DNA from: Cylicocyclus nassatus
Lineage: Eukaryota > Nematoda > Chromadorea > Rhabditida > Strongylidae
Assembly (NCBI GenBank): GCA_958299035.1
Contig: CATQJL010000223.1
Span: forward strand, 4,892,359-4,956,358
Direction: 5' to 3'
Length of the DNA: 64,000 nt
Position numbers and translations under genes: made by a program
The notes under the pieces: model-generated
The model's input: the letters and a program-made list of their open reading frames with translations, nothing else
Told to the model about the DNA's origin: nothing
The model's database searches: none
Shown: in pieces, positions 20,072-61,000 of the stretch
Position numbering within the stretch: the stretch's first letter is position 1
Layout: the number at the start of each line of letters is the position of its first letter

Positions 20072-20775
20072 TATTCGGACCAAACTTGGCACACATACAC
20101 TTCGGGCCCCGGCGGGTGTCACAGTCCACTTTTCGTTATCGATCGATGTCGATTTTACCGATTTTTATCGATTTTTTTGCAGAGTTCACCTACAGGGCTA
20201 GGAGTTGGCATAGGGGGGGAAGTGAGCATGGGGATTCCGAATACAATATTAGTTTTCAGAATTATCGATTACTTTTATTGATTTTATCGATTTTTTGTAA
20301 ATTTTGACATGCGAGGCTGGGATTTTGCACAGGGGGGTAATCGAGCATGCTGATTACGAACACAATATTAGTTTTCAGGATCGTCCATTACTTTTATCGA
20401 TTTTATCGATTTTTTGAAAATTTGAGTTAGGGGACTGGAATTTGGCACAAGGGTGTAACCGAGCATGCTGATCACCCCCCTTGGGAGTGATCAGCATGCT
20501 CGATTACCCCCCTGTGCCAACTCTCAGCCCCCTAGCTTAATTGCAAAAAATCGATAAAATCGATAAAAGTAATCGATAATCCTGAAAATCAATATTGTAT
20601 TCGTAATCTGCATGCTCGATTACCCCCCCCCCCCCTGTGCCAACTCCCAGCCCCGTAGGTGTACTCAGCAAAAAATCGATAAAAATCGATAAAGTCGATA
20701 TCGATCGATGACGAAAAGTAGCCTACGACATCCGCCGGGGCCCGAAATGTATGTGTGCCAAGTTTGGTCCGGATC
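20072..20775. mobile_element. Large palindrome rich in ATCGAT/TTTATCGATTTT blocks
   Basis: The outer arms are ATTCGGACCAAACTTGGCAC and its mirror GTGCCAAGTTTGGTCCG. Between them the same block recurs several times in both orientations: a TATCGATTTT-rich run, then a GGCTGGGATTTGGCACAGGG-like run, then GAGCATGCTGAT. It is probably a foldback element; the family is unknown to me. Confidence 0.6.
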
Positions 20776-25602: not shown

Positions 25603-25809
25603 TTCAATTGCTAAGCTTTGCATGCAATTCCGCCTTGCTTATTGCACCGTAGTACTTGAAATCATTACAACCGCGTTTTTGGCCTAACTATTCATACGCG
25701 GTCCTGAACTCTCAATTCACTCGGTGATTAGCGAGCATTCAATTTGTACGCTGAATCATCCTTTATTGTACAAGTATCATTTTTTACGCCAATTACGCCT
25801 TTCTGAAAA

Positions 25810-28800
25810 ATGGCTGGGCCCTTTGCATTAAAATCTCAGAAAGCGCTTTTAACTCGCTTCTGCAATAACTTGAACAATGTGATATCGCGCTATGAGGGGG
25901 ATGTTTCCTTGCAAGAAGATTCCTTTGAACGCTTATCACTTATTGTATGTGAATTGAAAGGGACTTCCAAATTAGTCTTAGAGCATCTTGGTAAATTCGC
26001 GAACATGGTAGACGCGCTAGCTGACTCATTGACCGAGGAACAAGAAGCGCAAGCGTTTGAGTACATGGAAAAAACACAGACTGCCATTGATCGCGCCGAA
26101 ATGCTTATAATACAACTTGACGCACGAAATGCAACAACAAGTGAGCGCGGGCAGTTAGCGCACTTCGCGGAACAACGGCAACAATCAGGGAATGGGGGGC
26201 AGTTGGAAATGGCAAAAGCAACGCTCCCTGCTATTCCCATCCCCACTTTTAACGGGAAAGTGTGGGAATTCAGTAATTTTTGGACCCTGTTTGAAGCGAG
26301 CGTTCATACTCAACCGCTTTCAAAGCTCCAAAAATTCAACTACTTAGTAAACGCATTACGCGGAGAGCCACGCGATCTGATAAGGCGCTTTGCGGTTACG
26401 GACGAAAACTACGATAACGCGGTGGAACTACTGCGCAAAAAGTACGGTAATGAGTCACAACTTATCGCGATACTACAGACGCGACTCGAACATACGAGGG
26501 CCGAACAAGGGACGATAATAGCGCAAAGAAAACTGTTGGAAACCCTACATCCCATCGTAACGCAGCTAGAAAAGCTAGGGGTTTGCTTAGATGGTTCTTT
26601 TCTCGCACAAAAAGTGCTATCGAAGTTTACGGCGAAACTTCAACGCAAAGTTCTGGAACGTCAAATGTCTCGGGAAAGAGGAGAACAAGACTGGAAACTC
26701 CAGAACATCATCGCGGACTTGGACTCACTGATAAGCATGGAGGAGCGAGTCAATGACATGGTTAGCAGGAATACCAGTCACGTCACCGTCAGGGAGGACG
26801 AAGCTCAGCAGCGTCGAAACGCCATACGCGGATCATCAAAACCCACATCCTGCATATTCTGTGGTACCATAGGTCACAATTCGGTCAACTGCAGGGTTTA
26901 CGACACGATGGAAATACGTCGTAAACTAATGCAAGAAAGACAGTTATGTCTAAACTGTGGAGGAAAGGACCACTACGCCAGAGACTGCACCGTTGAAGGA
27001 TGTAGGAATTGCCCAGGAAAAAGGCATCATTACACAATTTGCCCAAGACGCTTTTCGAAAGCAATTGGCAACAAGGATCTAGAACGAAGACAAGCCTCGC
27101 AGCAGCAATCCCGCACGCCACCGGTTAGGAAGACTGAAAGTACTAAACAACAACGAGGCAAACAAAAACGGGCACACCCAGTTAGCACCGAGATTCCAGA
27201 AGAGAACCACGAGGAACTGAGAGAAACGCAAGAACCTAGGACCATTCTTCACGCCGAGGAAAAGGGAACGCTCGGAAGAGATGGGTCAGTACTACTTCTC
27301 ACAGGCTCAGCAAGAATCTACAACACTGCTGGCAAGGAATGGACTGACGTCGAGATACTTTTCGACACGGGGGCAGATCAGTCCTTCATCAGTGCAAGCT
27401 TGGCAAACAAGCTCAACCTGGAAAGCTTAGGGACAGAAAGCTTCCAGATGTTTACATTCGGTTCACATGAAGCAAAGCCAACAGTGTGTGAGATGACGCA
27501 GCTCGAGCTCTGGGATAAGGAAGGTAAAAATCATAATGTGCGGTTATACACTATACCTATACTCACGGAGAAAGGAAAAAAAGTGACACTAAGCGGCGAA
27601 GACTTGAAGTTCTTGGAAACGCATCAAATACCTCTCTCGACAACTAACCAAGTAAGGGAATCCAACCCACAGATTTTGCTTGGTTGCGACCAGCTCTGGG
27701 ACTTCTTGGAAAATGTGTCGCCGAGGTTCACGCTTCCATCAGGTCTATTGCTCATCCCTTCCAAATTGGGCTACCTAATCACAGGGAAGCAACAAATGCC
27801 CGAGACTGCTGCGAAGAAAGGACGAAAAGCTTGTTCAACTTCTCTTTCTACGGTACGAGTATTCACCAACCTCAGTGAAAGCCTCGACGAAGATAAAGAA
27901 CGCTGGGACAAATATTGGACCATAGACTCCTCGGGAATTTGCGAGTTCACAGGAACAAAGAACGAAGAAAAGATTGCCACGCAAGAAAAAGTGGAAAACT
28001 TTTTCAATTCAACAATCGAGAAGCGCACCGACGGATACTATGTGCGCCTACCATTCAAAGAATCACATCCGCCGTTACCCACCAACAAAGCTATAGCATT
28101 GAAACGCTTGGGTCGCATATTAGAAACCCTGAAAACAGACACAATCGTGCTTCAAAATTACGCTGACATCATTGAAGAACAAAAACGGAAGGGCATTATT
28201 GAAGTGGTCCCAGACAACCAACTTCAGCAAGGAAACCATTTACACTATATCCCTCACCAGCCCGTGATAACGCCGCATAAGGAAACGACTAAGTTGCGCA
28301 TCGTATTCGACGCTTCCTCACACTTCAAAAACAGTCCTTCCTTGAACGACGTACTCCACCAAGGGCCAAGTATACTCCCAGAGTTATATGGCATGCTGAT
28401 ACGCTTTCGCGCAGCAAAATATGTAGCGACAGCTGACGTAGAAAAGGCATTTTTGCAAGTCCATCTCAATGAGATCGACAGAGACGCTACGAGATTTTTG
28501 TGGGTTCGCGACATTAACCTCCCTCCGGAAGGAGATAATATCGTCACTTATCGCTTTACGAGGGTAACGTTTGGCCTAAATGTTTCTCCGTATTTACTAG
28601 CGGGAACAATACGCTACCACATGGAGCAGCAAAACACAGACGAGGCCCTCGCAGGCGACATACGTGATAATCTTTATGTGGATAATCTAATCCTTCCGGC
28701 GGATACAGAAGACGAACTTCAACAAAAAGCCCAGGCTTCAAGACGATTCTTTGAAGATATGGGAATGAACTTACGCGAATATCTCTCGAATACCCATATC

Positions 28801-31800
28801 CTAGAAAAGGTCTTGAGTAAGGAAATTTGCGCAACGAAGCGTATCCAAAAGGTACTGGGTGTCACATGGAACGCGGATGAGGACAACTTGGTCATCAACT
28901 GTGCGATACCGCCCTCAAATTCTGTAACGAAACGCAGCATCGCACGCCAAATAGCATCAGTGTATGATCCACTGGGATGGTTAGTCCCACTGATGACGAA
29001 ATTGAAAGTATTCCAGCAAAATCTCTGGAAATTACCGCGAGAGTGGGATGACCCCATTGGTACAAACCTACGCGAGGAATGGGTTCAGCTCAAGACGAGC
29101 GTAGATGGTTACGAAAACTCGATTCCCAGAAGACTGACGCTAGGTACGGAACCTTATCATCTCGCAGTATTTGCGGATGCAAGCGAGATGGCCATGGCAG
29201 TATGCGCCTACTTGTTCAATGAGCAGTTCTCTTCACTCGTCATGGCCAAATCAAAACTTCCTTCCATAAATGGTCATACAACGATGCCCAAAATGGAGCT
29301 AAACGCGTTAACGATAGCTGTGCGACTGGCAAATTCAGTCTCTAAAGCAATACGAGAAAGAAGTAAGGAATTTTCGCGAACTATCATCATTCTTTCGGAT
29401 TCACAGATCGCATTGAATTGGCTTATGACCAACCCTCATCAGGACAAAGCAGGGGTACTTGTTAGGAACAGAACTAACGAAATTCGCGACATTGTCTCGG
29501 AACTAGAGAAGCAAGAAAGCCACGTACAATTCAAATACGTGAAAACGGAAGAAAATCCCGCGGATTTAGGCACTCGAGGAACAAATTCGGAGGGCATGGT
29601 TACCGACATGTGGTGGCATGGGCCACATTTCTTGCGCAAAGCTCTGACTGAATGGACGAACCCAAATTACACGCTGTATAAAGAAGAAAATCGAGTTAAA
29701 GCAGCAGCACTAGTATTGCGAAAAGGACCCATCGCAAACACATCAAGTCAACATCCTTGGGATCTCTCCAGATTTTCAACACTGAAAAAAGCAATACGCA
29801 CTGTGGCAATAGTATTGATTTTCATCAAAAAGTTACTACATAAACGTCCACTGGAAGAGCGAGGGGAATACCTCCCAGAGTTACAGGATATACAAGATTT
29901 ACCCATTCCCGCGACGGCTCAATCCAAACGAGCAGCGCGAAGGGCGATCATACGCTACCACCAGGAAATTTATCTCTCAAAGGAATACAGAAAATCAATG
30001 GAAAATACGCTGCACCTATTCCAAGATCGCCTACACATATGGCGTTCAAAAGGAAGATTGGAGATGTCATCCTTAGAAGAAGACGCGAAAAATCCGATAA
30101 TCATAGCGCCAAAGACGGCACTGGCAAATCTGATCATTCGCGAAGCCCACGGAAATTATCACAGTGGTGTAGAACACACGATGGCCAACGTCAGAGCGCA
30201 GTATTGGATCCCGCAGTTACGTCAACAAGTGAGACACTTGATCCATGACTGCGTTAACTGTAGGAGATTCAACGCACTGCCATATCACTATCCGGACTCT
30301 ACGAATTTACCAGAAAGAAGAGTTCAAAGAGGACGGCCTTTTCAACACATTGGACTCGACTTCTTTGACCTCCCCTCGGTAGATGAAAACAAAAGCTCCA
30401 AAATCTATGGATGCATCTTTACTTGCGCAGTTACACGCTTAATCCACTTGGAGTTGGTAGCCAGTATGAGCACCGAAGATTTCCTGAACGCGTTAAGACG
30501 ATTTATAGCGCGCAGGGGCATTCCGGAATCGATCACTTGTGATAACGCTCCAACTTTTCTCTTGAGTGAGCAGATCCTTAAAGACGCTATAACTCGAGAG
30601 ATTACCGATCTTGAAATTGATTGGCACCACATCACGCCTTATGCCCCATGGCAAGGCGCGTTTTATGAACGTCTTATAAAGTCAATCAAACAGTCGCTGT
30701 ACAAGGCCACAAGAGAGGTGATCATACGTTCCTACGACCAAATGGTGACGATAATGGCGGAAATAGAAGCTTGTCTGAACTCACGTCCGCTAACATATCA
30801 GGAGGTCAAGCCGGACACGCTTGGAATGATCCGCCCAATCGACTTCTTGCAGAAGGACTGGGTTATAACCCTTCCACTATGCGTAAATCCGTTAACGGAC
30901 GATGATCCGGATTACTTACCACCCGCCGAGTTAAAAACTTTACAAACACGGAAGCAAGTAGAAGAAGCGCTCACGTCGTCGTGTAAATTGCTGGAACGCT
31001 TTTGGAAGATATGGCAGCAACATTATCTGACCAGCCTACGTGAGAAACAACTGAAGAACATTGTAAAGCGGAGGCAAGGAACAGAGGTGCCTGCGGTTGG
31101 TTCGGTAGTGTTGGTGAGTGACCCGGTGCTCCCTAGAAACTCGTGGAAGCTAGCGCGAATTACGGAAATTCACCAGGGAGTAGAGGGAAAGATTCGCGAA
31201 GTTGAACTTACCACGAACAAGCGAAAAATTCGACGCCCAGTCAACCTTCTCGTCCCGCTAGAAATTGAGGAAGAGGACAAACCAACAACGCAGAGAGCAC
31301 CAGTTGAAACAGTAAGTGACCAGAAGGAAAAGGTGTCTCAGCGTTATGACCTTCGGCCACGCAAGCAACAACAGTACGCTGAGAATACTCTGACCAACCA
31401 GAGATTGAATTTGATTAAGAATTCACGCACAAAATGGTTCCTCTTCTATGTCATGATCTTGACCATACTCTCACCCACAACGCAGGAACGTTCGCATTCC
31501 ATCATGTTCAGTTGTACGCCCAATGGAGTATTTCTTCATGCGGTTATAAACGAGTCATTCCAAATTTGCGCGGACAACTATTGCAAAACACAAAATCAAG
31601 GAGCTCAGTCGCAAGTGATACGCTTTCCGGCAGAAATAACACTCCATGACCACGTGGTTATGTTGAAGTGGAAAAACGGAAAACATACAGAGACGATAAG
31701 TACTATCTGTAAAGGGCTTGATTTTTGTGACAATGTAGACTGCTGGTTCTGCTCTACGATCTTACTAAACCCTGAGTGCTGGCCACAAGGGGCGATCATC

Positions 31801-33648
31801 ATCTCAGCAGTCCTGCTCTACATGCTCATTGCGATAGTATATGCGCTCTTATACGTTCCAGTCACCGTTGGGAAACCATTAAGACTCATCCTAAGAGGCT
31901 TACATTGGCTCCTAATGGGTGGAGTCAAAGCGGTCGCTTACTCCTGTCTATGGGGGATCCACAAGCTATTCTCGAAAAGAAGGAGAACGAGAAGTGCACG
32001 AATGACAACTGCGCTAGCTATCCTACTGAACCTTATTTTCGCTACCAAAATGGTATCGCCAACATGTCAACGCATGAATATTTTCGACCACAAGCGGACC
32101 ATCTGCACACTAACCAATGGAGTGAGAGAATGTACGGTAACGCTTTCAGAAGTGCTAAAGATAAACGCGCTAAAAAGAGAAGCGTGCCTTAATCTTGTCA
32201 GCAACACATCTCTGGTCACCAGTATCAAAATTCGATGGCAAGGCATCAAACTTGACTGTGATCGACAAACACTGCTCTTCACGCGAGCCGTCAGATTGAA
32301 CGTGATAGATAGCAAGCGCTGTGCGCACATGGGATCTTGTTCAAGGAACAAATGCGCGGATATAAGCAGCTTCAGCCTTATACCCGAGCTAGAACCAGGA
32401 AACGCATTCCCAGGAAGAACTGAATGTATAGAATCCTGTGGGGGATGGGGCTGCGATTGCTTCTACCCAAGCGCCGGGTGCCTTTTCTACAGAGTTTATG
32501 CAGTTCCAGAGTCAACAAAGGCCTACGAACTTTTCCGCTGCATGAGATGGCGAGAAGAAGCGAAGTTGGAAGTCACGCTAGAACGGGAGGACAGGGAAAC
32601 AAGGTTTCAACGCTTTATTATACCATTGACTCCTAATGTTCCTGTCGAATTACCCTCCCTTCGAATAGTGATGACCTCCTTGGCACTACCTCCCATGTCA
32701 CTACTCAATGATCGATTCATCACCGACGGTGAAAATATCGCGATTTGGAGAGAACAGGAAGATCTACACTTACAGTGTGACTCTGAGGAAGCCGCTAGAA
32801 ATCTAAACTGTACACTGCGCGACGATTGCCGTTGCGAGGCCGCTGAGAGTAGAGTCAAGTGTCAGTGCTCTTCCTCAGATCTGAGAAAGGTCTTTCAAGA
32901 TGTAGAGACAAGCCTGCCAATCAAAACCCCGATTTGGCAACTAGAAAATGATCGCGGAGTACTCGTAGCGCGAATTCCGCAGATGGCAATGGCGGAATTT
33001 ATCGTAGACTTCAAGGAAAAGATCAACGATGTCGTTCTCGAAGTGCATAATGACGTCTGTACCGTGGAAAACAGCATTTTACAAGGCTGCTACAACTGCG
33101 CGCAAGGAGCAAAAGCCGTCATCACTTGTTATGCGAAAACGCAAAGATTAGCAGAGATATATTGCGCCCAAGATGCTTTTGCGGTTCCATGTGGTCCAAA
33201 AAAACCTCACTCTACCCTGGTGTTCGCGCTGAATGCCGCAAGGCAAGAAATGAACTGTTCGGTCAAATGTGGAACAATTTCAAAGGATTTCACATTAGTT
33301 GGAACACTCAAATATGTAAGCTCGTTACGCGGCCCATTTCTAGCAACCATCCAAGGAAACAGCACGCTGTATAACGAATTCCAGTGGCCTGATCTAGAGC
33401 ACATATTCAAAACCATGATAGACTGGTATAAGTCAATACTAGTGGCAGTACTAGGGGTTGTAATAGCGCTGTTGATCACCTATTTGACCATTCAATCCCT
33501 CGGTTTGCGCATGATATTTCTGCTTGTAAAGTTAATTCGCATGATTCTCTGTTGTCCCGTACGCGGACTGAACGCACTCATTCAATTTTTTCTTGGTAAA
33601 AAACAACACAATTTCGATTCGCTTGCACTGCACCAAAAAACCGTCTGA
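25810..33648 (+). CDS. Gag-Pol-Env-like polyprotein of the BEL/Pao provirus (2612 aa)
   Basis: One uninterrupted frame. Residues 1 to about 345 are Gag-like, helical. Zinc knuckles follow at about 348-412 (first C348, second cluster from C380). The protease core FDTGAD is at 518-523. Reverse transcriptase has its catalytic YVDN box at 956-959. RNase H acids are D1123, E1163 and D1197. Integrase has an HHCC zinc region, then D1517, D1578 and E1620. From about residue 1870 the frame continues without a stop into an env-like part: hydrophobic segments near 1877 and 1995-2020, a signal-like segment near 2065, a cysteine-rich patch from C2206 resembling the fusion-loop region of phlebovirus Gc glycoproteins, and a C-terminal membrane anchor near 2543-2562 with a short tail. 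Phlebovirus-like env regions are known from Tas and Cer7. No frameshift separates gag, pol and env, so cleavage or splicing must separate the products. Confidence 0.95.
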   Translation: MAGPFALKSQKALLTRFCNNLNNVISRYEGDVSLQEDSFERLSLIVCELKGTSKLVLEHLGKFANMVDALADSLTEEQEAQAFEYMEKTQTAIDRAEMLIIQLDARNATTSERGQLAHFAEQRQQSGNGGQLEMAKATLPAIPIPTFNGKVWEFSNFWTLFEASVHTQPLSKLQKFNYLVNALRGEPRDLIRRFAVTDENYDNAVELLRKKYGNESQLIAILQTRLEHTRAEQGTIIAQRKLLETLHPIVTQLEKLGVCLDGSFLAQKVLSKFTAKLQRKVLERQMSRERGEQDWKLQNIIADLDSLISMEERVNDMVSRNTSHVTVREDEAQQRRNAIRGSSKPTSCIFCGTIGHNSVNCRVYDTMEIRRKLMQERQLCLNCGGKDHYARDCTVEGCRNCPGKRHHYTICPRRFSKAIGNKDLERRQASQQQSRTPPVRKTESTKQQRGKQKRAHPVSTEIPEENHEELRETQEPRTILHAEEKGTLGRDGSVLLLTGSARIYNTAGKEWTDVEILFDTGADQSFISASLANKLNLESLGTESFQMFTFGSHEAKPTVCEMTQLELWDKEGKNHNVRLYTIPILTEKGKKVTLSGEDLKFLETHQIPLSTTNQVRESNPQILLGCDQLWDFLENVSPRFTLPSGLLLIPSKLGYLITGKQQMPETAAKKGRKACSTSLSTVRVFTNLSESLDEDKERWDKYWTIDSSGICEFTGTKNEEKIATQEKVENFFNSTIEKRTDGYYVRLPFKESHPPLPTNKAIALKRLGRILETLKTDTIVLQNYADIIEEQKRKGIIEVVPDNQLQQGNHLHYIPHQPVITPHKETTKLRIVFDASSHFKNSPSLNDVLHQGPSILPELYGMLIRFRAAKYVATADVEKAFLQVHLNEIDRDATRFLWVRDINLPPEGDNIVTYRFTRVTFGLNVSPYLLAGTIRYHMEQQNTDEALAGDIRDNLYVDNLILPADTEDELQQKAQASRRFFEDMGMNLREYLSNTHILEKVLSKEICATKRIQKVLGVTWNADEDNLVINCAIPPSNSVTKRSIARQIASVYDPLGWLVPLMTKLKVFQQNLWKLPREWDDPIGTNLREEWVQLKTSVDGYENSIPRRLTLGTEPYHLAVFADASEMAMAVCAYLFNEQFSSLVMAKSKLPSINGHTTMPKMELNALTIAVRLANSVSKAIRERSKEFSRTIIILSDSQIALNWLMTNPHQDKAGVLVRNRTNEIRDIVSELEKQESHVQFKYVKTEENPADLGTRGTNSEGMVTDMWWHGPHFLRKALTEWTNPNYTLYKEENRVKAAALVLRKGPIANTSSQHPWDLSRFSTLKKAIRTVAIVLIFIKKLLHKRPLEERGEYLPELQDIQDLPIPATAQSKRAARRAIIRYHQEIYLSKEYRKSMENTLHLFQDRLHIWRSKGRLEMSSLEEDAKNPIIIAPKTALANLIIREAHGNYHSGVEHTMANVRAQYWIPQLRQQVRHLIHDCVNCRRFNALPYHYPDSTNLPERRVQRGRPFQHIGLDFFDLPSVDENKSSKIYGCIFTCAVTRLIHLELVASMSTEDFLNALRRFIARRGIPESITCDNAPTFLLSEQILKDAITREITDLEIDWHHITPYAPWQGAFYERLIKSIKQSLYKATREVIIRSYDQMVTIMAEIEACLNSRPLTYQEVKPDTLGMIRPIDFLQKDWVITLPLCVNPLTDDDPDYLPPAELKTLQTRKQVEEALTSSCKLLERFWKIWQQHYLTSLREKQLKNIVKRRQGTEVPAVGSVVLVSDPVLPRNSWKLARITEIHQGVEGKIREVELTTNKRKIRRPVNLLVPLEIEEEDKPTTQRAPVETVSDQKEKVSQRYDLRPRKQQQYAENTLTNQRLNLIKNSRTKWFLFYVMILTILSPTTQERSHSIMFSCTPNGVFLHAVINESFQICADNYCKTQNQGAQSQVIRFPAEITLHDHVVMLKWKNGKHTETISTICKGLDFCDNVDCWFCSTILLNPECWPQGAIIISAVLLYMLIAIVYALLYVPVTVGKPLRLILRGLHWLLMGGVKAVAYSCLWGIHKLFSKRRRTRSARMTTALAILLNLIFATKMVSPTCQRMNIFDHKRTICTLTNGVRECTVTLSEVLKINALKREACLNLVSNTSLVTSIKIRWQGIKLDCDRQTLLFTRAVRLNVIDSKRCAHMGSCSRNKCADISSFSLIPELEPGNAFPGRTECIESCGGWGCDCFYPSAGCLFYRVYAVPESTKAYELFRCMRWREEAKLEVTLEREDRETRFQRFIIPLTPNVPVELPSLRIVMTSLALPPMSLLNDRFITDGENIAIWREQEDLHLQCDSEEAARNLNCTLRDDCRCEAAESRVKCQCSSSDLRKVFQDVETSLPIKTPIWQLENDRGVLVARIPQMAMAEFIVDFKEKINDVVLEVHNDVCTVENSILQGCYNCAQGAKAVITCYAKTQRLAEIYCAQDAFAVPCGPKKPHSTLVFALNAARQEMNCSVKCGTISKDFTLVGTLKYVSSLRGPFLATIQGNSTLYNEFQWPDLEHIFKTMIDWYKSILVAVLGVVIALLITYLTIQSLGLRMIFLLVKLIRMILCCPVRGLNALIQFFLGKKQHNFDSLALHQKTV

Positions 33649-33700
33649 TGTCACTAGAAATATTTATCATCTATACTTTATTATATTTGAACCAGTACCC

Positions 33701-33709
33701 TTTCAGACC
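33701..33709 (+). promoter_or_regulatory. Splice acceptor just before the second provirus ORF
   Basis: CCCTTTCAG followed by ACC and then ATG matches the nematode 3' splice consensus (TTTTCAG). It sits 3 bp before the ORF2 start and could serve cis-splicing from 25596 or SL trans-splicing. Confidence 0.5.
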
Positions 33710-35317
33710 ATGAGTCGAGAAGATGAACTGTCCCGCTTGAAAGAAGAGAACAAACGACTACGCAGCGCCATTCCAACCCTTCCGATGCCGCCCGTGCTGC
33801 TCCAGCAAATCCTCGATCACGCCGGGCAGCTCAATCAGACAATGCGAGATGTCAGCCAATTGGAATTGGATGTATTGCGCATCGAAGGTTCACCACAAGA
33901 ATGGTCTGATCGGCTAGCTTTACTGCAGATGAGAGAGAATGAATGTGATCGCTTTAGATTAGAGCTTCTTTATTTGAGAACGCAGTTTTGTATGTTTTTT
34001 GCATTGCCTCATTTCCTTGTGGCTACGAACGCGATCTCCCTTGACGCCTGGAGAGCTATGATAGCGCGCGAGAGGAGAGACGCCCATGGAATGGAACTGC
34101 TCACGGACCAGGAGATCATCAACTTCGCAATCGACGACCATCTGCGCACCGTCACTTCGATCAGCCAAAAACTCAGAGATATTCGCAATCACCTGCAACA
34201 GGAGGAACGCACAGAGGTCGCCAATCGGCAGGCACAGATCCTCGCAGCAGTCACCACTCTCGTCGACAGTGAAGAATCCACGTCGAAAAAGGTGGAAGAG
34301 TTTGAAACCAGTCTGCAAGACATAGTCGCAACGCTGCAGGAAGTCGAAAAAACACGACCGCAATCAACATCAGATGAAGAGACTTCAACACATAGGGAGG
34401 AAATCATCGATGCGGTCGTAAACGCCGTGATGAGTAACGTCGACGCAAAGTTGAACGAAATACTGGCCTTAATCAAGAGATCGCAGCCGACAGACGAAAG
34501 CACAGGGAATCGAGAGAGTCCAGACGGTGAGAACGCGGCGATGCAGGAAGAAGAAAGAGTGGAAGAACACGCGACGAACGAGCCTACAGAAGCTGTTCAA
34601 GAAGCTGTCCATCACGCAGACGACGCAAGGGTCGAGGATGAGCTCCAACTGGAAGAAGAGGCGCTAGGCGAAGAAATTCACAATGAGGAGCCAAACGTAG
34701 AAGCCGAGCATCTCGATGAGGAGATTCCTTTCGAGGAAGAGCTGGAATATGTAGAAGAAGCCAACAGCGATGACGAAGCACCACTCGAAGAGGAAGAGAG
34801 ACGCCAGTTGGAAGAGGAGCGCGAAAGACGTGAACACCAGCGGCAACGTCTCAGGGCAGACCTAGACCAAGCCATTCAAGCAGAACGCGACTTTGAGCGT
34901 CTGATAGATGAGCTCTCGCAACGAAGAACCTGCCCACCAAGACGCTTCTCACATGGTTTCATTCTGCGCAGCGAGGAACAAACCATTCAGTGTGTGTTTT
35001 GTAAACGCGTCGGCAACCATTATTCAGACTCGTGTCAGACTGTCGCGGACGCAGCGACACGCCGAGATGTATTGCGAGCTGAGCTTCGCTGTGTCATGTG
35101 TCTAACCACAGAATGCGCGGAAGACATCTACTGTCGAAAGTACGCAGTGAAATGCTACCACTGCCGTGGTTTCGGACACCATTCGGCCATTTGTGAATTG
35201 CCAGAAGAAAGCCAATCAATCCTTGAGCAGCTACGATCTGCACGCGAAGGACTAGAAAGGAACCGCGAGAGAAGGCGCAACATCGAACGCCAGCTACGCG
35301 AAGAACGCCAGCAATGA
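33710..35317 (+). CDS. Second provirus ORF: coiled-coil protein with Gag-like zinc-knuckle C-terminus
   Basis: The frame is open from inside the end of the env region, but the ATG at 33710 is preferred because a splice acceptor ends 3 bp upstream. This start gives 535 aa. The N-terminus is a charged heptad-like helix (EDELSRLKEENKRLR). The middle is very acidic (roughly residues 280-400), followed by an Arg/Glu-rich helix. The C-terminal third carries CVFC-X5-H-X4-C from C428, a CVMC group, and CYHCRGFGHHSAIC from C482. Their spacing parallels the knuckle array in the polyprotein, including the linker that ends in RC/LC before the second cluster. I infer an accessory Gag-like nucleic-acid-binding protein made by duplication or recombination. 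I know no established name for it. Confidence 0.85.
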   Translation: MSREDELSRLKEENKRLRSAIPTLPMPPVLLQQILDHAGQLNQTMRDVSQLELDVLRIEGSPQEWSDRLALLQMRENECDRFRLELLYLRTQFCMFFALPHFLVATNAISLDAWRAMIARERRDAHGMELLTDQEIINFAIDDHLRTVTSISQKLRDIRNHLQQEERTEVANRQAQILAAVTTLVDSEESTSKKVEEFETSLQDIVATLQEVEKTRPQSTSDEETSTHREEIIDAVVNAVMSNVDAKLNEILALIKRSQPTDESTGNRESPDGENAAMQEEERVEEHATNEPTEAVQEAVHHADDARVEDELQLEEEALGEEIHNEEPNVEAEHLDEEIPFEEELEYVEEANSDDEAPLEEEERRQLEEERERREHQRQRLRADLDQAIQAERDFERLIDELSQRRTCPPRRFSHGFILRSEEQTIQCVFCKRVGNHYSDSCQTVADAATRRDVLRAELRCVMCLTTECAEDIYCRKYAVKCYHCRGFGHHSAICELPEESQSILEQLRSAREGLERNRERRRNIERQLREERQQ

Positions 35318-40296: not shown

Positions 40297-40877
40297 CTCA
40301 GACAATCGCCGGGGACAGGCAGTCCGCAAACTCGCGCTTTTCTGCAAGCGGTCAGCAGAATTTTGGGGCATGACCAAACCTTCAGCGAGCGGCACTTCCC
40401 TTACTGTTTAATGTTCTGCGGGCAGCAACACAGAATTTTCTGCAGGCGCTTGTCAAATAATCTCCTTCAGCGAGCGCCGGTCAAATTTTCAGCTGGGGCC
40501 GGACGGTTTTTAAGCAGTTTCGGGCGTACGCCGAGCAAAGGTGAGACTCTACATGGCAGAGGTGTCATCGATGATCTAATTACTCAAGTTTGAGATACTT
40601 TCTCTCAGCGGAAAGGACCTGGGGGCTGCGCGGTTCTCCACAAAAGACCGTGCGGCCCGCGAAAATTTTGCATATTCTCGCGGAAATTCAGCGAGAATAC
40701 GGCCACTGCGCCGCAACTAATCTATAAGGAAACCGCGATTGTTCTCCAAGCATTAGTCTAAAATTTCGCTAAGATTCTTCCAAATATCCGCAAGCGGACC
40801 GCAAAAAATGAGCGAACTATTTTTCCGGTGCCCGCCCCCCATAAATCGCATAGCCGCCTGCCCCGGCGATTATCTGA
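40297..40877 (+). mobile_element. SL-carrying MITE, copy at 40 kb
   Basis: The ends are CTCAGACAATCGCCGGGG and the mirror of CAGATAATCGCCGGGG. It is colinear with 58925-59512, including the internal SL1-like block. It is inserted directly after the TTA-flanked MITE, and the foldback arm resumes at 40878. Confidence 0.8.
40573..40702 (+). pseudogene. SL1-like RNA pseudogene inside the 40-kb MITE
   Basis: It aligns with the SL1-like block at 59206. The leader part has two further changes in its first four bases, and the GT donor after GTTTGAG has become AT, so the leader could not be spliced. The downstream hairpin (GCGCGG...CCGTGC), the AAAATTTTGC block and the final CTCGC...GCGAG hairpin are kept. 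Confidence 0.75.
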
Positions 40878-46864: not shown

Positions 46865-46960
46865 GGTTTAATTACCCAAGTTTGAGGTAATAGGCATTAA
46901 ACGTGTGTTGTTCGTGTGGTGGTTGGTTGGTTCATTTGGCAAGGTTGTGGCAACCTTTTT
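46865..46960 (+). ncRNA. SL1 spliced-leader RNA gene
   Basis: Bases 46865-46886 are identical to the 22-nt nematode SL1 leader and are followed by a GTAA donor. The donor side continues into ATTAAAC (46896-46902), which can pair with GTTTAAT in the leader, while GGTA pairs with TACC; this is the conserved first stem of SL1 RNA. Farther on, CATTTGG (46933-46939) could act as an Sm-like site. It precedes a perfect 7-bp hairpin AAGGTTG/CAACCTT (46941-46957) and a T run. The RNA would be about 95 nt. In C. elegans SL1 genes sit in the 5S rDNA repeat; no 5S sequence was noticed here. The Sm site is atypical, so it may be a weak or decayed copy. Confidence 0.7.
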
Positions 46961-47445
46961 ACCGCCGAAGTTAAACCCGAACGACTCACAAATCCGATCG
47001 ATCGAACGATTTTGTCTTGATACACGTCGGATAATCCCGACCAATTTGCCGGTGGAGTCGGGTCAGCCAGGACAAAATTATGTCCCGAAACAAAACGAAA
47101 GTGGGCGGATCTGCTGCGGTCGTCAACCGCGAATGTCTGACGTACACAGATCTGATAGCCTGCGGCCACTGCGCTAATCGCACTTGCTTGCTAAAAACAC
47201 ATATTCTCTTGTTTAGTCATCAAAAAAGCATGTAAGCAAAAACATATGCACTGATAGAACAATAAAAGTATCTTTGGTAAAAGATCACATGATGTAGCAG
47301 AGCTCCAAATGAGGAATGAACAGTACAAATTACTTTAATTTCGAGCAAAACATGCAGAAATGCCTCGTTTTCAGTTCGGTCAATTTTCACTTGATCCCCA
47401 GTAGTAGTCGCAACTCGCTTCTTCATACCCTCCTCCTCTTATCCG

Positions 47446-48075
47446 TACCGAAACCCATCCATAACTTCTCCAGATGCTCAAACCGGATACATCTTCGCAG
47501 GTTTTTTAGATTAATTTTGCTCTATCGGATTATGGAAAGACCAGGCCAATCGAAGGAATTATGTCCGGGTACCATGCCCTTGAAGTTGGCCCGCAAAACA
47601 ACGATTTTCAACGGATACCCGCCTATACCTTCTCCATATGTCCACCAATCCGGACACGTCTTCACAGGTTTTCTAGTTATCTTTGCTCTATCGGATTATG
47701 GAAAATATAGGTTAATCCAGAAGGTCATATCCGACTGTTCCCCTGAATATGGCTTGCAAAACAACGATTCCCATCCGGTACTCACCCACGACTTCTCCAT
47801 ATGTCCCAACCCGGATACGTCTTCAGAAGTTTTTTATTTTATTTTTGCTCTATCGGATCATGAAGAAACCAAGCCAGGGTATCGAGGGGTAAGCAATCGA
47901 GGGTATCGTATCCGCTCTTTGCACTCTTTCGGATCATAGAAAAGTTAGGCCAATCGAAGGAGTCATGCCCGGGTACCATGCCCCCGCAAAACAACGATTC
48001 CTAAACGATACTCACCCAAAACTTCTCCATATGTCCACCAATCCGGACACCTTTTCACAGGTTTTCTAGATCACT
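47446..48075 (+). repeat. Tandem repeat, about 160-bp unit, nearly four copies
   Basis: Units begin near 47446, 47617, 47776 and 48005 with an ACTTCTCCATATGTCC block followed by AATCCGGACAC. Next come a TTTTCTAGAT(T)-like segment, TTGCTCTATCGGATTATG, and CGCAAAACAACGATT at the end. The third unit is longer by internal duplication. A 207-codon frame across it (47316-47939) is a product of the repeat, not a gene. Confidence 0.75.
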
Positions 48076-48129
48076 CTTGCATCTTCTGCATTCTGAGAAA
48101 ATTTAGCCATGAAAGATCACTTCTACTGT

Positions 48130-52000: not shown

Positions 52001-55000
52001 GTGTGTATACTTTAAAATCGTTTCTACAGGTGAGTGAAAGGTGTTCTTAATGGTGTTTATGGTGTTTAGATGATTCTTTCTTTTGATTCCAATGTTACTG
52101 GTGCTATTTCTGAATTCTTTCATTTCCAGTAGTGCTCCTGGTAGTGAAACTGTGCTTTCCTTTACAGCAGTAATACTACTGGTATTTTGAAGGTGCTGTT
52201 TTTGCTTTATTCTTGTCATTTTTGAAGAATAAAGGAGGAAAGATTTGTTCTGAAACAAATTACTATTGAGAGGAAAATTGAGACCAAAGAACGGGAGCAA
52301 AAGCCACTGGTGAAGGAGGTTGCTGCGGCGCCGCGCATCATGAGCGTCATCATACATCGGTCCGCGCGCGGCGAAAGCTACTGCGCCTTATACCCCGGAA
52401 ATTAGGGTAGTATCTTAGATATATAAACGTCAAAGTTTGTGCAAATCTTGACCCTATGTTTTTTTTTATAGATTCCTTTGCGGATGAACCCATTAAGCTG
52501 AAACCTTGATGACCCGGGCTGGACCAGGAAAGTCAGGTAGTACTACTATAATAAGCGCTGAGGCCGCCCATCTTATTATTTGTGTATATCTGTTTGTCAG
52601 GGACTTACGGGGGTCAAAAATAGGGTCAAAGGGGAAGTCGTAAGAAATTTTGGCTTCAAAGGGGACATCGTTTTCAAAATTCTGAAATGCCACCTCTTGC
52701 CGGGCCCTGGATCGGATTACTGAACGCTCTCTTCGCTTCTGTGGGGATAAAGATTCCAGCATATAACGCCGCTGTGAGATACGCCGCGTAAAAACTCCAC
52801 AAAAAATCCTAAAATAGTACCAATTCGCTCATACTACTTTCACTTTACCGTCCTCTTCATTGTTGAAACTTTTCATCGGCGTAATCATTTTGAAAAAACT
52901 CAGAAAAGTTGTACGCTCCATCTTGCATAACTTCAAAATTATAATGGTAAAGTGCGATTTTTACGTTCAGAGCCAGCGACTCTGATCGCCTAACAAGAAC
53001 TTTTAGCTTATTTCTCCATTAGGGGAAAAGGGGGCCCCTAATGGGTCAGAACCCTCTCCCAGTTCCCTACCAGTATTATATTTATCTTTATCTTCACCTA
53101 TTACCTCGAGGTGCACCAAAAATAACAATTGTGAATAAAATCACATATCAACTATTCACACTACATATGAAAAACGCTTGATAAATAAGAGTGTATGTGC
53201 ACTCAAAAACCTTAGACCCATTCAGCAGTAAAAGACAGAACAGATTTAATGCTACACGAGGAATATAAGTATCTCGAACTTATCAAAAGCTCTGATCTGG
53301 AGCATTCTGCGAAATTGATGCTACACTAATAAAGAATGATCAGTGAATCGCTCCATACTAACTAAGTCAGCTCTCAGCTCTACATAATGGTGCCCAAAAA
53401 TCATCGAGAGGCATAAGCATAAGCGGCGACGTCATTAACGCCACTTAGTGTGTACATTTTCTCGACATTAACTTGTGTAATTGAATTTTATTCCAGCAAT
53501 ATTTTGATGATAACTATGAATCAGCCTTGAGAAACCATTACTACAGTGAACTATACAATCTCTCCTATCCGATTGGAAAATTATGGATATATCGCCTTCC
53601 ACTTGAAATGACTCTCCATGGAGTAAAACTTGTCACAGCCAGCGTAGATAACGACAATAACACTAAGGGAAGACGGGTGAGTTTTCGTAACTTCGTTGGA
53701 TTACACCCTTGCTCAGACAATCGCCGGGGCAGGCGGGCACCGGAAAAATAGATTGCTGATTTCTCGCACCCCGCTCGCGGATTTTTTGAAAGCAATCAGG
53801 ACTTTTCGGGAGACCGCTTGCTGAGTCAGCGGGTTTTTGAGAGACCGCCTGTTGAATTTTTTTCGCTCTTATCTTTTGCAGATATATTGCTGAATCTCTG
53901 AGGAGTCGAGAATTCAGCAAGCGGTCTTCCTAAAAGTCCTGATTGTTTTCCAAAAAATCCGCGAGCGGGTGCGAGAAATCAGCAATATATTTTTCCGGTG
54001 CCCGCCTGCCCCCGGCGATTGGCTGAATGGTATCCTCGATTTCGCAGAAGGGATTCTTCGGAGATTATATCCTAATAAATCCAAATGCAACCATAGAAAA
54101 TCAAATCACGAACATGGAACATGTTTCGGTAAAGTCTATTCATATTCACATTCCCCCATCAAATTGAGAATCACAGATTATTTACCTGCAAATCCATGGT
54201 CTGAAGAACACATCATCTCGGGCTAGGGACCTCTCTACGTGGGAGCTTGGCCTATACGAGTGGAGTAAAAATTATAACCAGGGCGACTCCCTAGTCAAAG
54301 TTCTTGTAAGTCTCAGAAAACACCCACTATCCTGAACCTCAGCTTGGAGGCGTGAAACAAGCTAGTGCAAGAAACGCAGGTTTTTAGTTGCTCGGAAACG
54401 AGGTTTTGGATGTCGAGATTCTTGCTGCGCATACGAAATTGGCACCTTATTTTGGAGCAGGTAAGTTATGTCCTTTTGAAAAACTTTTCTATATATTATA
54501 TTAGGTCGTTCCGAAAGTAATGTCGCTTTTTTTAATTGAACGCTACATTTCGTGAAAGCAAGGTTTCTAGGAGATCTTGGTAGCATTCGATGCAGCATTT
54601 CATCCTCTTTCCAATGGCTATAATTTCACTGCAGAATACTCGATGAGCTTTTGAAAAATTGCTAAAATCTCCAACCCATGCTTTTTGGGAAGGTCAAGTT
54701 TCACAATTTTTCTAATTTTTTGTAATAACTCCCGGAAGGAGTCCAAGTGGTGGATGGATAGAGCAAACCCTTTGAAAGACGGTGTTATTTTTTTCTGCTC
54801 TCCGTATCTCGTCATAATTTTTGTAGAGATTTTTCAATGAAGTCACCGAATTTTTGCAGGCTTGTCTCAAACACATATGCATCAAACACCAATAAACTTT
54901 CGGATTCTGAGACTTAAAAAGGTGGATTATGGTTTAACACTAATTCTACAAAGCATATGAGCATTTACCGCTTCAGATTAGCAACTTTCGGAAATTTTGG

Positions 55001-58000
55001 GTACAGCCTGGGGCGCCCTGGAAAACCTGAATTATGATGATTTATCCCGGAAAACTTGGTGACTCGGAAACTAAAAACAACTGGTAGAAAGGGGAGAAAA
55101 AGCTGCGTCTAATGACACTCGAGTTGCTTGCCGATTGTTATTCTGTGAGATCTGAGTTGACCAAATATGGAATTTGATAGCACTGAAAAAGTGGTTCTAC
55201 AAACTCCAAGAAGCAAACTGAGGAAAAGAAAAAAATTGTTTTGTGTCCTATAGGGTTTGCTCTATTTATCTGTTACTTGTGCATCTTCGGGGAATCAGTA
55301 CAAAAATATAGAAAAATAGCCGAACTTGACCATGACAAAAAGCATATGTCGCAGGTTTTAGTAATTTTTTGAGAGCTCATTGAATATTATGCAATGGGAT
55401 TACAATCAGTAGAAAGAGGACGAAATTCTGCATCGACTGATCCCAAGAGCTCTTGAAAGTCTTGGTTCCACGAAATGTGGCGCTCATTTGAAAAAAGCGA
55501 CATTACTTTCGGAACGACCTAATACATAAACCAGAAGATCTGTGTGTGCATAGTTAACTGTATGATTTTATAGACTCCATTCTGCGGAACCAACTAACAA
55601 GGGAATGGTTGGAAGTCGAAGTGGCCAATCCGTACAAGCTGCATACCATTAGATGCAGCATAAAATGCTGACTCTAAATCTGTCTACCTTATCTGCAGAA
55701 CGCTTTTGTGGAGGAAATTATAAGCCGTTGAATACCATTATTTTGCTAAGAAATAGTGCGTGTAAAGTGCAAACTTGGCTGTACAAAGCCATTCTTGGCT
55801 CAGTGTTGGACCAAAACATGCAACTAGGTCACCTCATATGACCCATGCCTAGAGATGAGCTGAAAGAGCAATAATGTGCCCAATTTGGCAGTTTTTGTAT
55901 ACGATTTTTTCGCGTTAAAGCTGCTCATAACTTCGCCTACAAAGGCGCTCTGCAGATATGGAAGACAGATTTGAAATCAGCATCCTAAACTGCATCGAGT
56001 GGTATGCAGCTTGTATGGATTGGCCACTTCGACTTCTGACCATTCCCTTGTAAGCTGAAAATCTGACATATGATTTCCAACCCATAGATCGTAGGCCACC
56101 CCTTTTGCGCCAATCAGCCGGATCTTCTGTCAACTATTAATATTCAACATTTTATAAAAGTTGCATTATTATTGAGCGCTCGTAAACAAGTTTCCCACTT
56201 TATGTAAACCTTGACGGTAGAACCCATGTCCATTTGGCGGCGAGGAGGATGCGGGAACTCGTTTCGTTATGTAGCAGATGGCCTACTTCAATGCACGAGC
56301 CTCTCTCTCCTTATTATGACCTCCCCTGCATAGGTTCCAGCGCGAACGGTAGAGTTAGGGTGAGCGAAGTCATGTCCGGCGGTCACGTGCAGAGGATATG
56401 GGGAAGGATTTCCAGCCGTGAATGAATCATTTGCGCTGCCGCTTGGACAGTGTATTAATTATTATGGTCCCCTCATCAGCGTCCAAACGAGAAACCCAAG
56501 AAATTTGCCTAGACACTGCCTTCAATGATGAAGAGTCGTTGCGTGCAAATCGCGTGAGGCGCGCCTATGTCTCAAGGCATACCTCACGCGATTTCAGTCG
56601 CTGCGCGATTCATCACACAACTACTCTTCGCCATAGGGAGTAGAAGCGCTTTGCTGGGTCAAAGCTTGTTGCGTTTGTGATAGTAGCAAGCTACGCGCCT
56701 ACGCATATAAGAACTGCGCACGGTGGATCCTAAAGATCTGGCAAAATGCCAAGCCACGCAAATTCAATGATTTGATGGAATCGCTGGAGCCTGCCTGCCT
56801 TGGGCCTAAGGAAAGTCTTTTCATCGCAATCTTTGCGTAAGGTGTGATAGACGGAAATGTGCTCTTGCAACTGCACCCCTGCTGTAGGACTTCCTAAGTA
56901 CTTCTGCGGGCTCCATGTCAGGAGTCACGCCGCGCGCCGCGCCGCTTCGCCGCGAACGTCGCGTCTAAATTTTGTACCCCGCAAAACTGCCCGGTGCCAA
57001 AGTGGCACGGCGCCAGTCTAGGGGGGTGGGGGGTGGGGGCAGATACATGGCTCGTGTCATAAGTAAGACTGCGCCAGGAGTGCTGGCTTCTGTTTTGCTG
57101 ACAACGCTTGCGGCATCGCTTCGCGAAAAATTCGCGCCGACCGTGACTCCTGACCGTTCCCCCTTCTGCGCGCAAAGCAACTGCGGTCGCACCTACAATT
57201 TGATCCGAGGATATATCTTAGTTTGGAAGTTTCTGTATCTCCGAAACTAAGCTAGTAATAAACTGTTTTCGCTTGACTACCCACTAGTAGCTCGAGATTC
57301 TCATAATAATTCAGGATCCTCTTCCATGTTTACATTTGTTGCTTTTTGCGTCTTTACAACCGCATACTACTATGGGGCACTTGACTTTGGAAAAATGTAA
57401 GTAGGATGTTGCATTATTTGAGGCTTGTAGAACTCAAACTCAACGGCAGACTTATTGGGATCGGAGCAGCGATATGTCCACTTCTGGCAATAACTTCAAC
57501 ATTCGGCTTCGTTGCATTAGTGGGCACAAGAATCAATTCTTTTTTATTTGTTATGCCGTTCCTGATCTTCGGTGTTGGTATGTAGATCTCATTCAGAATT
57601 AAAAACGAAAGTTTGTTATTGAAGGGATAGATGCAGCTTTTCTCATGGTGAGCTCATGGCAGAAACTCACGAAGAGAAGGTATACAAGTTCACAAAGACT
57701 AGGTGAACGAGAGATCTAGAAGTTTCGCTTTTCCTACCTTACGAAAAAATTCCACTAATGTTCTTGCAGCTTTGACCTACGAAAAAGCCGCTCCTAGCGT
57801 CGCTGTCACCTCCGTTACAAATGTTGTGTCCTTTGCAGTTGGAGCTATCACACCCACACCTGGTCCTTTAGATCGAAATTAGAATTTGTTGTTCAATTCT
57901 ATATTCAGACATCCGAATTTTTTGCTTCGGAACATCTGTAGCAATGGGTTTGACATTTGTGTATCAACTAATCTTACTCGGGCCTATGCTATCTTTAGCT

Positions 58001-61000
58001 GATCCATGTGAGCAACAGCGATATACGAGAGAATTAACGAATCAAAGAAATTGTGAGAAGGTGAGAAATGGCCGTTGGTTCATAACTGCTTGTAGATCAC
58101 TTTCTGAGGGCCGCATGCATTAGCATCTCCGCTAAAGAGGGAAACGCAGTTCCAAAGAAAGCTTCATGTCTTGATGCTCCAATAATGTGGAATTGCGGTC
58201 TAACTATCCGCAAATGTCTCTACTACCCTTTATTATAAACATGTTGAGCAGGAGCGAGAATTAGGTAGAGATGGGATGCCGATAGGGGAGGTCTGACGTG
58301 GACATCTGCAACAATCGCGCGCTTCTCTCCATCAAAGCTCGTGGTAGCAGTCCGCGGGGTGGAGACTACTAGCGAGCTCTTCTCCTCTATCCGCGAGAAG
58401 TTGTACGAGCTGCATTTTGCAGTTTTTTGATCCGCTGATGATCCTCAGATCTTCAGGGGATCATACAAAAAGCTGTATAGTATAGGTATATGTATAGGTT
58501 GTATAGGTTCTCGTTCCTCAAATGTTTGTTATAAAAAGGTAGCAGAAATAATTGCGGATGACTATATTGCGTAAAGTTCAGAAGACTGGAACTTCAGGGT
58601 CTAAGCTTTCTTCTGAGCTGCGTCCCCTTAGCAAGGGACATACCTCACGCGATTTCCGCCGCCACGCGATCTGGCAATTTGCCAGATGTCTTCAAAATCA
58701 ATACTGGTAGACCCTAAAAGCACAGCATGTATAACTTTCGTAGGTTGATAAAATGCCCCACCTTCCGTACATTCAGAAACCCCTACGATGAGTTATGAAC
58801 ATTTGGAGTATTGCCAAATTGCGTGGCGACTGAAATCGCGTGAAGTATGCCCAAGGCCTTATGCGGCGAAAAGCCCGTACATGAACATCCCTGCGACGAG
58901 GGAAAAGACGACGGCGATGATGAACTCAGATAATCGCCGGGGGCAGGCGATCCGCAAACTCGCGCTTTTCTGCAGGCGGTCAGCAGAATTTTGGGGCATG
59001 GCCCAACCTTCAGCGAGCGGCACTTCCTTTACGGTCGCATATTCTGCCAGCGGGCAGCAATACAGCATATTCTGCAAGCGCTCGGCAAATAATTTCTTTC
59101 AACGAGCGCTGGCTAAACTTTCGTCAAGCGGTAGGACTCTTTTAACGCAGTTTCGGGCATACGCCGACTAAAGATGAGACTCTATGTGGCAGAGGTACCA
59201 CCGTTGGTTTAATTACTCAAGTTTGAGGTACTTTCTCTCAGCGGAAAGTACCTGGGAGCTGCGCGGTCCTCCACAAAGGACCGTGCGGCCCTCAAAAATT
59301 TTGCATATTCTCGCGGAAAATCTGCGAGAATGCGGCCATTGCGCCGCAGCTAATTTATAAGAAAACCGGGATTTTCTTCAAGCATTCGTCTAAAATTTCG
59401 CTAAAATTCTTTCAAATATCTGCAAGCGGACCGCAAAAAATCAGCGAACTATTTTTCCGGTGCCCGCCCGCCCATAAATCGCATGGCCGCCTGCCCCCGG
59501 CGATTATCTGAGAAGATGCCGCAGCGGCTTCCGCTCGCCGCTCCTTTATAAGGGGGTCACCGCTGCGGCAGCTCATATCATCACATTTCCTCACAAATGA
59601 ACCACACTGAAAGCCGTTTAAGCAATGGCTGGTTCGAGACTCCTAGGCAATACGCTCGGACAATGTTTTTCAACATTGTGATAGCTCAAAACTTTTTGTA
59701 AAATTCAATTGTTCTAGATCAAAACTATGTCACAAGCTCTTCTACATGCATATTCCTCGACTATGAAAAACAGGTGCATCGATGTCACAATTGTGACTAT
59801 CACTTTCTTTTATTGGGCTTTGTGCATCAGCGGTGTTGTTGAACTGAGGAGTAAACTAGATGCGACAAAAATTTTACCAAAGGATTCATTGCTGCATGAA
59901 GCGAACACACTAATGAGTGACATAGGTAAACCCAAAATTTTGATTTCTTTCCTGAAATTTGCTAGAGATAGACTTGTATAGTGTGGACGGAGGTTTTCAT
60001 TGGAACATTTTTTGTCAATTCTCCTTTTGATATCACCAATGAAGAGACAACAACTCAATTCTGGAACATGTTGCAGGAACTAGAAGAATTGCCAAGATGC
60101 AGAGGTAAGAAATCTTGAGATAGGATGCATTTTTGTGACTGCGAAATATAGCAATTTAGGCTACAAATCTTCTTACGTTTGGTTTAGAGATTTCGTTGAA
60201 TACTCTAATGGAACTAAAGAAATTTACCCTTATGGAGTGAGTAGTATCATCTCTCCACTGTCGATGACAAATATGTCCTATATACGTTAAACCGATGCTA
60301 AAGGAGTTTTGAGCCAAAGGGAGAAAGAGGAATCGGGGAAAGTCCCTTACATAAAAATAGCAAATTGCACCGTCGATTTGCGAAGAGATGTATGTTACTG
60401 AGAGCAGCTAATCCTTGATTGAACTGCCTTGGCTTCGGGAAGGTGGAGCTTTGTGAACACAATTAAGCCCGCTCGCACCCATGGCGCACCTGCTTCTCTC
60501 TCGCGCGAGTGCTCTCTGATCATTACCTAGCCTTAATCAGGTCACGAAGCCCCGCTTTCTCGAAGCCAAGCCAGTTGAATCAAATGGTACAAACTCTGGT
60601 TACAAATTGCAATTCTCATTTGCTGAGCGATTCTCTATAACAAAACAAAAGCGTTGAAAGTTAGAAATTTTTGAGGGCTCAGGGGTGATTTGCTATGAAA
60701 TAGAATGAGAGGATTGAAGTGGTGTTGAGTATACCAGACATAGAAGGAAACAAACTCTGTCATGTTTCGAGCGCTTGTGAAGGGACAATTTGGTGCTCTT
60801 CCCTATCGGAATGGTTGTGCTAATACACCAAACGCGAGGCGTACTCTTGCTCCTGATAATTTAACTGAGTAGACTCGTAAGCCATGTGGTTCCGGATTGT
60901 CCACATATTGTTAAGGATTTGCCTTGTATGTCTCTGTATCAGTCGCTTTGCCATTTTGTTCTTCTTACAGCTAGTCACACTTCCTCTTCCGTGACTGCTG

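Follow-up and report, generated by a model that had tools for sequence, protein, structure and literature searches.

A family of MITE-like elements has probably captured a cassette derived from a spliced-leader (SL) RNA and copies this cassette along with the element. This proposal is made from the sequence of one stretch of DNA of 64,000 nucleotides (the window, GC content 43.5%) and is based on the layout of the block, its occurrence in two copies at different sites and a similarity between these copies that ends at the inverted ends. The cassette would comprise a leader, a donor, three hairpins and an Sm-like site. Most probably an ancestral element took up either an SL RNA gene of its host or an SL-like RNA gene whose leader had T12, and transposition by a transposase supplied elsewhere then multiplied the cassette with the element. 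The preliminary description had proposed an SL RNA gene riding inside a mobile element. The carrier part of that interpretation is retained: the block is carried by an element of mobile type and is copied with it between unrelated flanks. The other part, a working SL RNA gene, is weakened by a low Rfam score, an Sm site off the consensus, a donor predicted in a stem unlike that of SL1 and the decay of copy B. A DNA transposon family with a functional SL RNA gene on board, which would distribute variant trans-splice donors over a nematode genome, appears unlikely.

Copy A of the element is located at positions 58925..59512 of the plus strand (588 bp) and is defined by its perfect inverted ends, by the limit of similarity and by stops. 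The left inverted end (58925..58949, plus strand) is complementary in 25 of 25 positions to the right end (59488..59512, minus strand). The ends had been described as perfect and 20 bp long; they are indeed perfect, and their length is 25 bp. The element had also been called palindromic, which does not apply to copy A as a whole: in an inverted-repeat search the one long inverted pair spanning the element consists of its own two ends. Stops occur in all six frames of copy A and of copy B. Copy A is thus short, noncoding and bounded by terminal inverted repeats, as is a MITE. Among predicted proteins no candidate was found for one frame through copy A, and one frame through copy B gave two candidates, neither with E <=0.01. 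No target-site duplication was detected for A, B or a shorter relative C among exact repeats of 3-10 bp with shifts of up to 6. The best flanking repeat is 4 bp in A and 3 bp in C, with none in B, and a 4-bp repeat arises in 42% of random pairs. Since no target-site duplication is visible, no transposon superfamily is named for the element. Directly to the left of copy A lies an inverted pair, 58636-58678 / 58810-58852 (86%), with a similar piece at 56576-56610; it is perhaps another small foldback.

The second copy, B, was recognized by alignment to A at 40297..40877 of the plus strand, about 19 kb away; its ends are imperfect and its flanks unrelated to those of A. The alignment extends over 593 columns with 86.7% identity. 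The similarity stops 3 to 4 bases past the right inverted end and 1 base past the left, in a search whose query extended 124 and 188 flanking bases further than the aligned stretch. The SL block of copy B occupies 40573..40702 (plus strand). Because the block is found in both copies and the similarity ends at the inverted ends, it can be said to travel with the element. The preliminary description depended on the block occurring in another copy as well, and copy B carries it. Relative C, a shorter foldback at 53712..54026 (plus strand), has its ends and subterminal parts in common with A and gave no match to the SL block; one half of it is 77% similar to the other. The block is therefore present in two of the three end-to-end relatives in the 64-kb window. 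Fragments near 8332, 10793 and 21860 also have ends or subterminal parts in common with the element, so that within the window the family is represented at several unrelated sites by A, B and C together with the fragments.

A covariance model built from the blocks of A and B gave no third copy in the window. The two blocks scored 164.7 bits (A) and 155.9 bits (B) against this model, which was made from these two, and the four other matches in the window ranged from 7.1 to 18.4 bits: two minus-strand echoes of the hairpins, an SL1 exon at 46865 and a match at 11634. Exact patterns of the leader, the inverted end and the block core had no matches in viral contigs, nor had the leader plus GTA and the block core in prokaryotic genome contigs; as these scans were made on viral and prokaryotic collections only, the absence of copies there says little.

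Other features were observed elsewhere in the window. The region 25807-35317 contains long intact ORFs that by eye resemble a retroelement of Bel/Pao type including an envelope-like part. For its 581-aa ORF at 33572, one match at E <=0.001 was found among 8000 scored candidates, a protein with 68% identity over 92% whose name refers to a Phlebovirus G2 fusion domain; it belongs to Cylicocyclus nassatus, a strongylid nematode. The window is probably from a nematode of strongylid type. A Pfam scan of eight ORFs, including the 581-aa ORF, gave no families. At 47442-48106 there are direct repeats that have diverged, offset from one another by about 164, 327, 404 and 557 bases.

The leader of copy A spans 59206..59227 (plus strand) and agrees in 21 of 22 letters with the nematode SL1 sequence, the single change being C12T. 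The donor GT follows directly at 59228..59229 (plus strand). Both features had been described earlier, the leader as one base off SL1, and both are confirmed. In copy B the leader has two further changes (19 of 22 letters) and the donor position reads AT instead of GT. Matches to SL1 with at most three mismatches occur in the window at 46865 (0 mismatches), 59206 (1) and 40573 (3), while none of 100 dinucleotide shuffles contained any such match. Under a Markov-1 model, 8e-7 sites with at most one mismatch would be expected per 64 kb on both strands, and 0.006 sites in 500 Mb. The T12 letter is common to A and B and is therefore older than both copies. The letters of the T12 leader did not occur in any paper of the open-licence PMC library.

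Downstream of the leader, copy A has hairpin 1 (59226..59253, 11 bp, overlapping the donor), hairpin 2 (59258..59289, 13 bp), the Sm-like site AAAAATTTTGC (59294..59304) and hairpin 3 (59306..59332, 12 bp), all on the plus strand and with G-U pairs allowed in the arms. The order of hairpin, Sm-like site and hairpin given in the preliminary description is thus preserved, with the corrections that there are three hairpins rather than two and that the first overlaps the donor. The three longest arms of element A (13, 12 and 11 bp) are all located in the SL block; the next is 9 bp. Hairpin triples with arms of at least 9 or at least 10 bp within 115 nt are found in the window only in the block of copy A, and at 9 and 10 bp in none of ten Markov-1 sequences. 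With arms of 8 bp there are two triples in the window, the second at 3005-3112, and some in two of ten Markov sequences. The block of copy B has no triple with arms of 8, 9 or 10 bp. Hairpins of 11, 9 and 9 bp also occur in relative C, where no SL block was found, which indicates that the family is rich in hairpins in any case and that the hairpins alone are no proof. In RNA folding copy A reached a z-score of -7.9 and copy B one of -4.4; the fold of the site at 46865 is weak, with -1.4.

According to PMC6362198, the Sm consensus is RAU4-6GR, that is purine-AU4-6G-purine. Both copies read AAUUUUGC, and the strict pattern is absent from the block. The earlier assignment therefore stands as to the presence of AAAAATTTTGC before the last hairpin, and fails as to the last letter, which is C instead of the purine that the strict consensus requires. 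The site does hold ATTTTG, a looser form named in a passage of PMC8570151 for eustigmatophyte algae. In the predicted ensemble of copy A, the A-rich half of the site has an unpaired probability of 0.70-0.89, and the last G and C are unpaired at only 0.07 and 0.03.

The environment of the donor in the predicted fold differs from that of SL1. Positions 22-25 of copy A pair with positions 44-47 with a probability of 0.94-1.0, so the donor is bound to a downstream arm, and the leader-donor stem of the Rfam SL1 structure is not formed. The leader-donor hairpin alone has an energy of -3.1 kcal/mol in copy A, compared with -13.7 kcal/mol for hairpin 1.

A stretch of 156 bases around the block of copy A scored 17.8 bits (E 0.34) against Rfam SL1 (RF00198), far below the cut-off of 75. 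SL1 was the best of the eight matches listed from 4227 Rfam families for the copy A stretch, and the alignment covers model positions 1-103 with AAAAUUUUG in register. By reading of the alignment, this score seems to be owed mostly to the leader. For the block of copy B, SL1 was the second of four matches, with 12.9 bits. Over the whole window no Rfam family reached its cut-off, SL1 was absent from the matches with E <=1, and 5S had no match. A tRNA scan of the window in the bacterial setting gave none. Two palindromes had weak Rfam matches: a hairpin-forming one of 83 nt at 20440-20522 matched mir-1263 with 50.6 bits, below the cut-off of 95, and one of 53 nt at 18044-18096 matched MIR7723 with 27.8 bits.

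Outside the element, the SL1 search also found an exact SL1 exon followed by GTAAT at 46865..46886 (plus strand). Its Rfam SL1 score is 23.7 bits, likewise below the cut-off of 75. No strict Sm site occurs from 46865 to 47100, and the 90 bases that precede the exon contain no GTTTC; the leader-donor stem here has an energy of -5.1 kcal/mol. This site is a lone SL1 gene, a pseudogene or a divergent SL RNA. It has no clear similarity to the block past the first 25 nt, and as a donor of the block body it was rejected (best local match 21 columns, E 0.11). The block itself is only called SL-RNA-like, in view of its SL1 score below the cut-off, the Sm site off the consensus and the donor paired downstream. 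It is judged to be SL1-derived in the leader and no member of the SL1 family.

Two readings of its activity fall under the proposal of capture, and their odds overlap with those of that proposal. The first, which has about an even chance of being right, is that a portion of an SL RNA gene or pseudogene was captured once, is not expressed from the element and has drifted neutrally. The divergence of the two copies is consistent with it. Over 130 nt, A and B have 12 differences, 6 in stems and 6 outside, and 4 of 36 stem pairs are broken in B, where 3.9 would be expected if the 12 changes were placed randomly. As the stem pairs were taken from A itself, the absence of broken pairs there is a matter of construction. 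With gaps left out, the identity between A and B is 230/276 upstream of the block, 20/22 in the leader, 98/108 in the body and 162/175 in the 3' part. The block is thus no more conserved than the 3' part of the element, although it exceeds the upstream part in this respect. Most simply, copy A is read as the younger, because its ends are perfect, and copy B as the older, which has decayed, apparently neutrally. The letter of copy A at positions 2, 4 and 23 is that of SL1 or the donor G. Against a dead passenger, the leader of copy A departs from SL1 only by the change that it has in common with B; this argument is weak, because a young copy would have gathered few changes anyway.

The second reading is that an snRNA-type promoter drives a capped RNA that acts as a T12 trans-splice donor, which would make the element a mobile source of the leader. 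We consider this form doubtful. Copy A keeps all parts of an SL RNA except the strict Sm site, including the leader, the GT and three long stems, and the fold predicts the A-rich stretch of its Sm-like site to be mostly unpaired. A position of -56 is compatible with SNAPc-type promoters. The candidate there is GTTTC at 59150..59154 (plus strand), a weak one; it occurs at -56 from the leader in both copies, of which B is not independent of A, and 2.2% of the 25-nt stretches of the window hold this motif. The promoter test covered just the GTTTC piece of the SNAPc motif, which a passage of PMC6436959 describes as ancestral and located in the 3' half of nematode SNAPc motifs. The active form has against it that the Sm site departs from the strict consensus and is paired at its 3' end, that the downstream arm takes up the donor at 1.0, where in SL1 the leader would pair with it, that GT is lost in copy B and that the stems bear no sign of selection; the intactness of A also agrees with a young age, because the ends are perfect. 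It is thus a tentative suggestion that copy A gives rise to a transcript whose leader is passed on to mRNAs. If it did so, the 5' ends of mRNAs would carry GGTTTAATTACTCAAGTTTGAG joined at an acceptor AG.

A duplicated chromosomal segment that includes an SL RNA gene and no mobile element is very unlikely, and was rejected. The distance of about 19 kb between the copies would suit such a duplication; however, the similarity is confined to the element, ending on either side no more than 4 bases from the inverted ends despite the longer query, and a third relative and fragments have the same ends or subterminal parts. Hardly credible is a likeness between the inside of a foldback and an SL RNA that arose by chance, for which the hairpin-rich family, with the stems of relative C, and the weak Rfam match of the body could be cited: it is ruled out in practice for the leader by the roughly 8e-7 matches expected per window, and is less certainly excluded for the body alone, where the GT and the Sm-like stretch are in the right order and the block contains the three hairpins of A with the longest arms.

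Capture and copying of an SL-RNA-derived cassette, the preferred explanation, may be of wider interest. To our knowledge, the gain and dispersal of nematode SL RNA genes and variant leaders are poorly explained, and an element with an SL-type cassette offers a direct, testable route. Should the cassette be dead, it would still suggest that DNA elements can capture and multiply SL RNA genes, and captured cassettes would also confuse the counts of SL genes in genomes. If a working gene is carried, the leader repertoire and the SL RNA dosage would change by transposition.

In comparison with the nematode SL1 RNA genes (RF00198), the block has 21 of 22 leader letters, a GT next to the leader and an Sm-like stretch before the final hairpin in common with them, and differs in its score (17.8 bits against 75), in the downstream pairing of its donor and in an Sm site ending in GC. 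SL-type loci beyond the 5S cluster are described in excerpts for Heterodera glycines, where 22 of 180 SL1-matching loci are near an Sm motif (PMC6362198), and for C. elegans, whose SL2 genes are scattered across the genome (PMC11822377); these excerpts give no mobile carrier for the dispersed loci.

A DNA element with a leader, donor and structured body as cargo was not found in searches of an open-licence library of papers. Several mobile elements are related to small RNA genes or RNA motifs in other ways. According to the relevant passages of PMC4640811, NeSL-type retrotransposons (spliced-leader exons) and Utopia (U2 genes) are also mobile DNA tied to SL or snRNA genes; there the genes are the target, whereas here a gene-like block lies inside the element. 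The Dada DNA transposons, as summarized in part of PMC8869645, likewise combine a DNA transposon with small RNA genes (snRNA and tRNA), which are their target and not their cargo, and they have 6 or 7-bp duplications. The Tm1 Mutator/Foldback elements of root-knot nematodes, in the extract of PMC3169594 that describes them, are similarly small inverted-repeat elements, some with RNA-level motif cargo. The Tm1 cargo is a histone hairpin motif, and Tm1 was defined with 9-bp target duplications, none of which was found for the element here.

Further prior art is the SL exon sequence in flatworm transposable elements, as reported in the portion of PMC5832876 that concerns Schistosoma mansoni. There, 6 of 32 extra SL loci are merged to transposable elements, and retro-transcribed copies of trans-spliced exons are suggested as their origin. 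The two cases are alike in having SL sequence within mobile elements. In the present element, unlike that of Schistosoma mansoni, the leader continues into GT and a structured body, inside an element with inverted repeats, and this points to an origin from an SL RNA or its gene rather than from a spliced mRNA.
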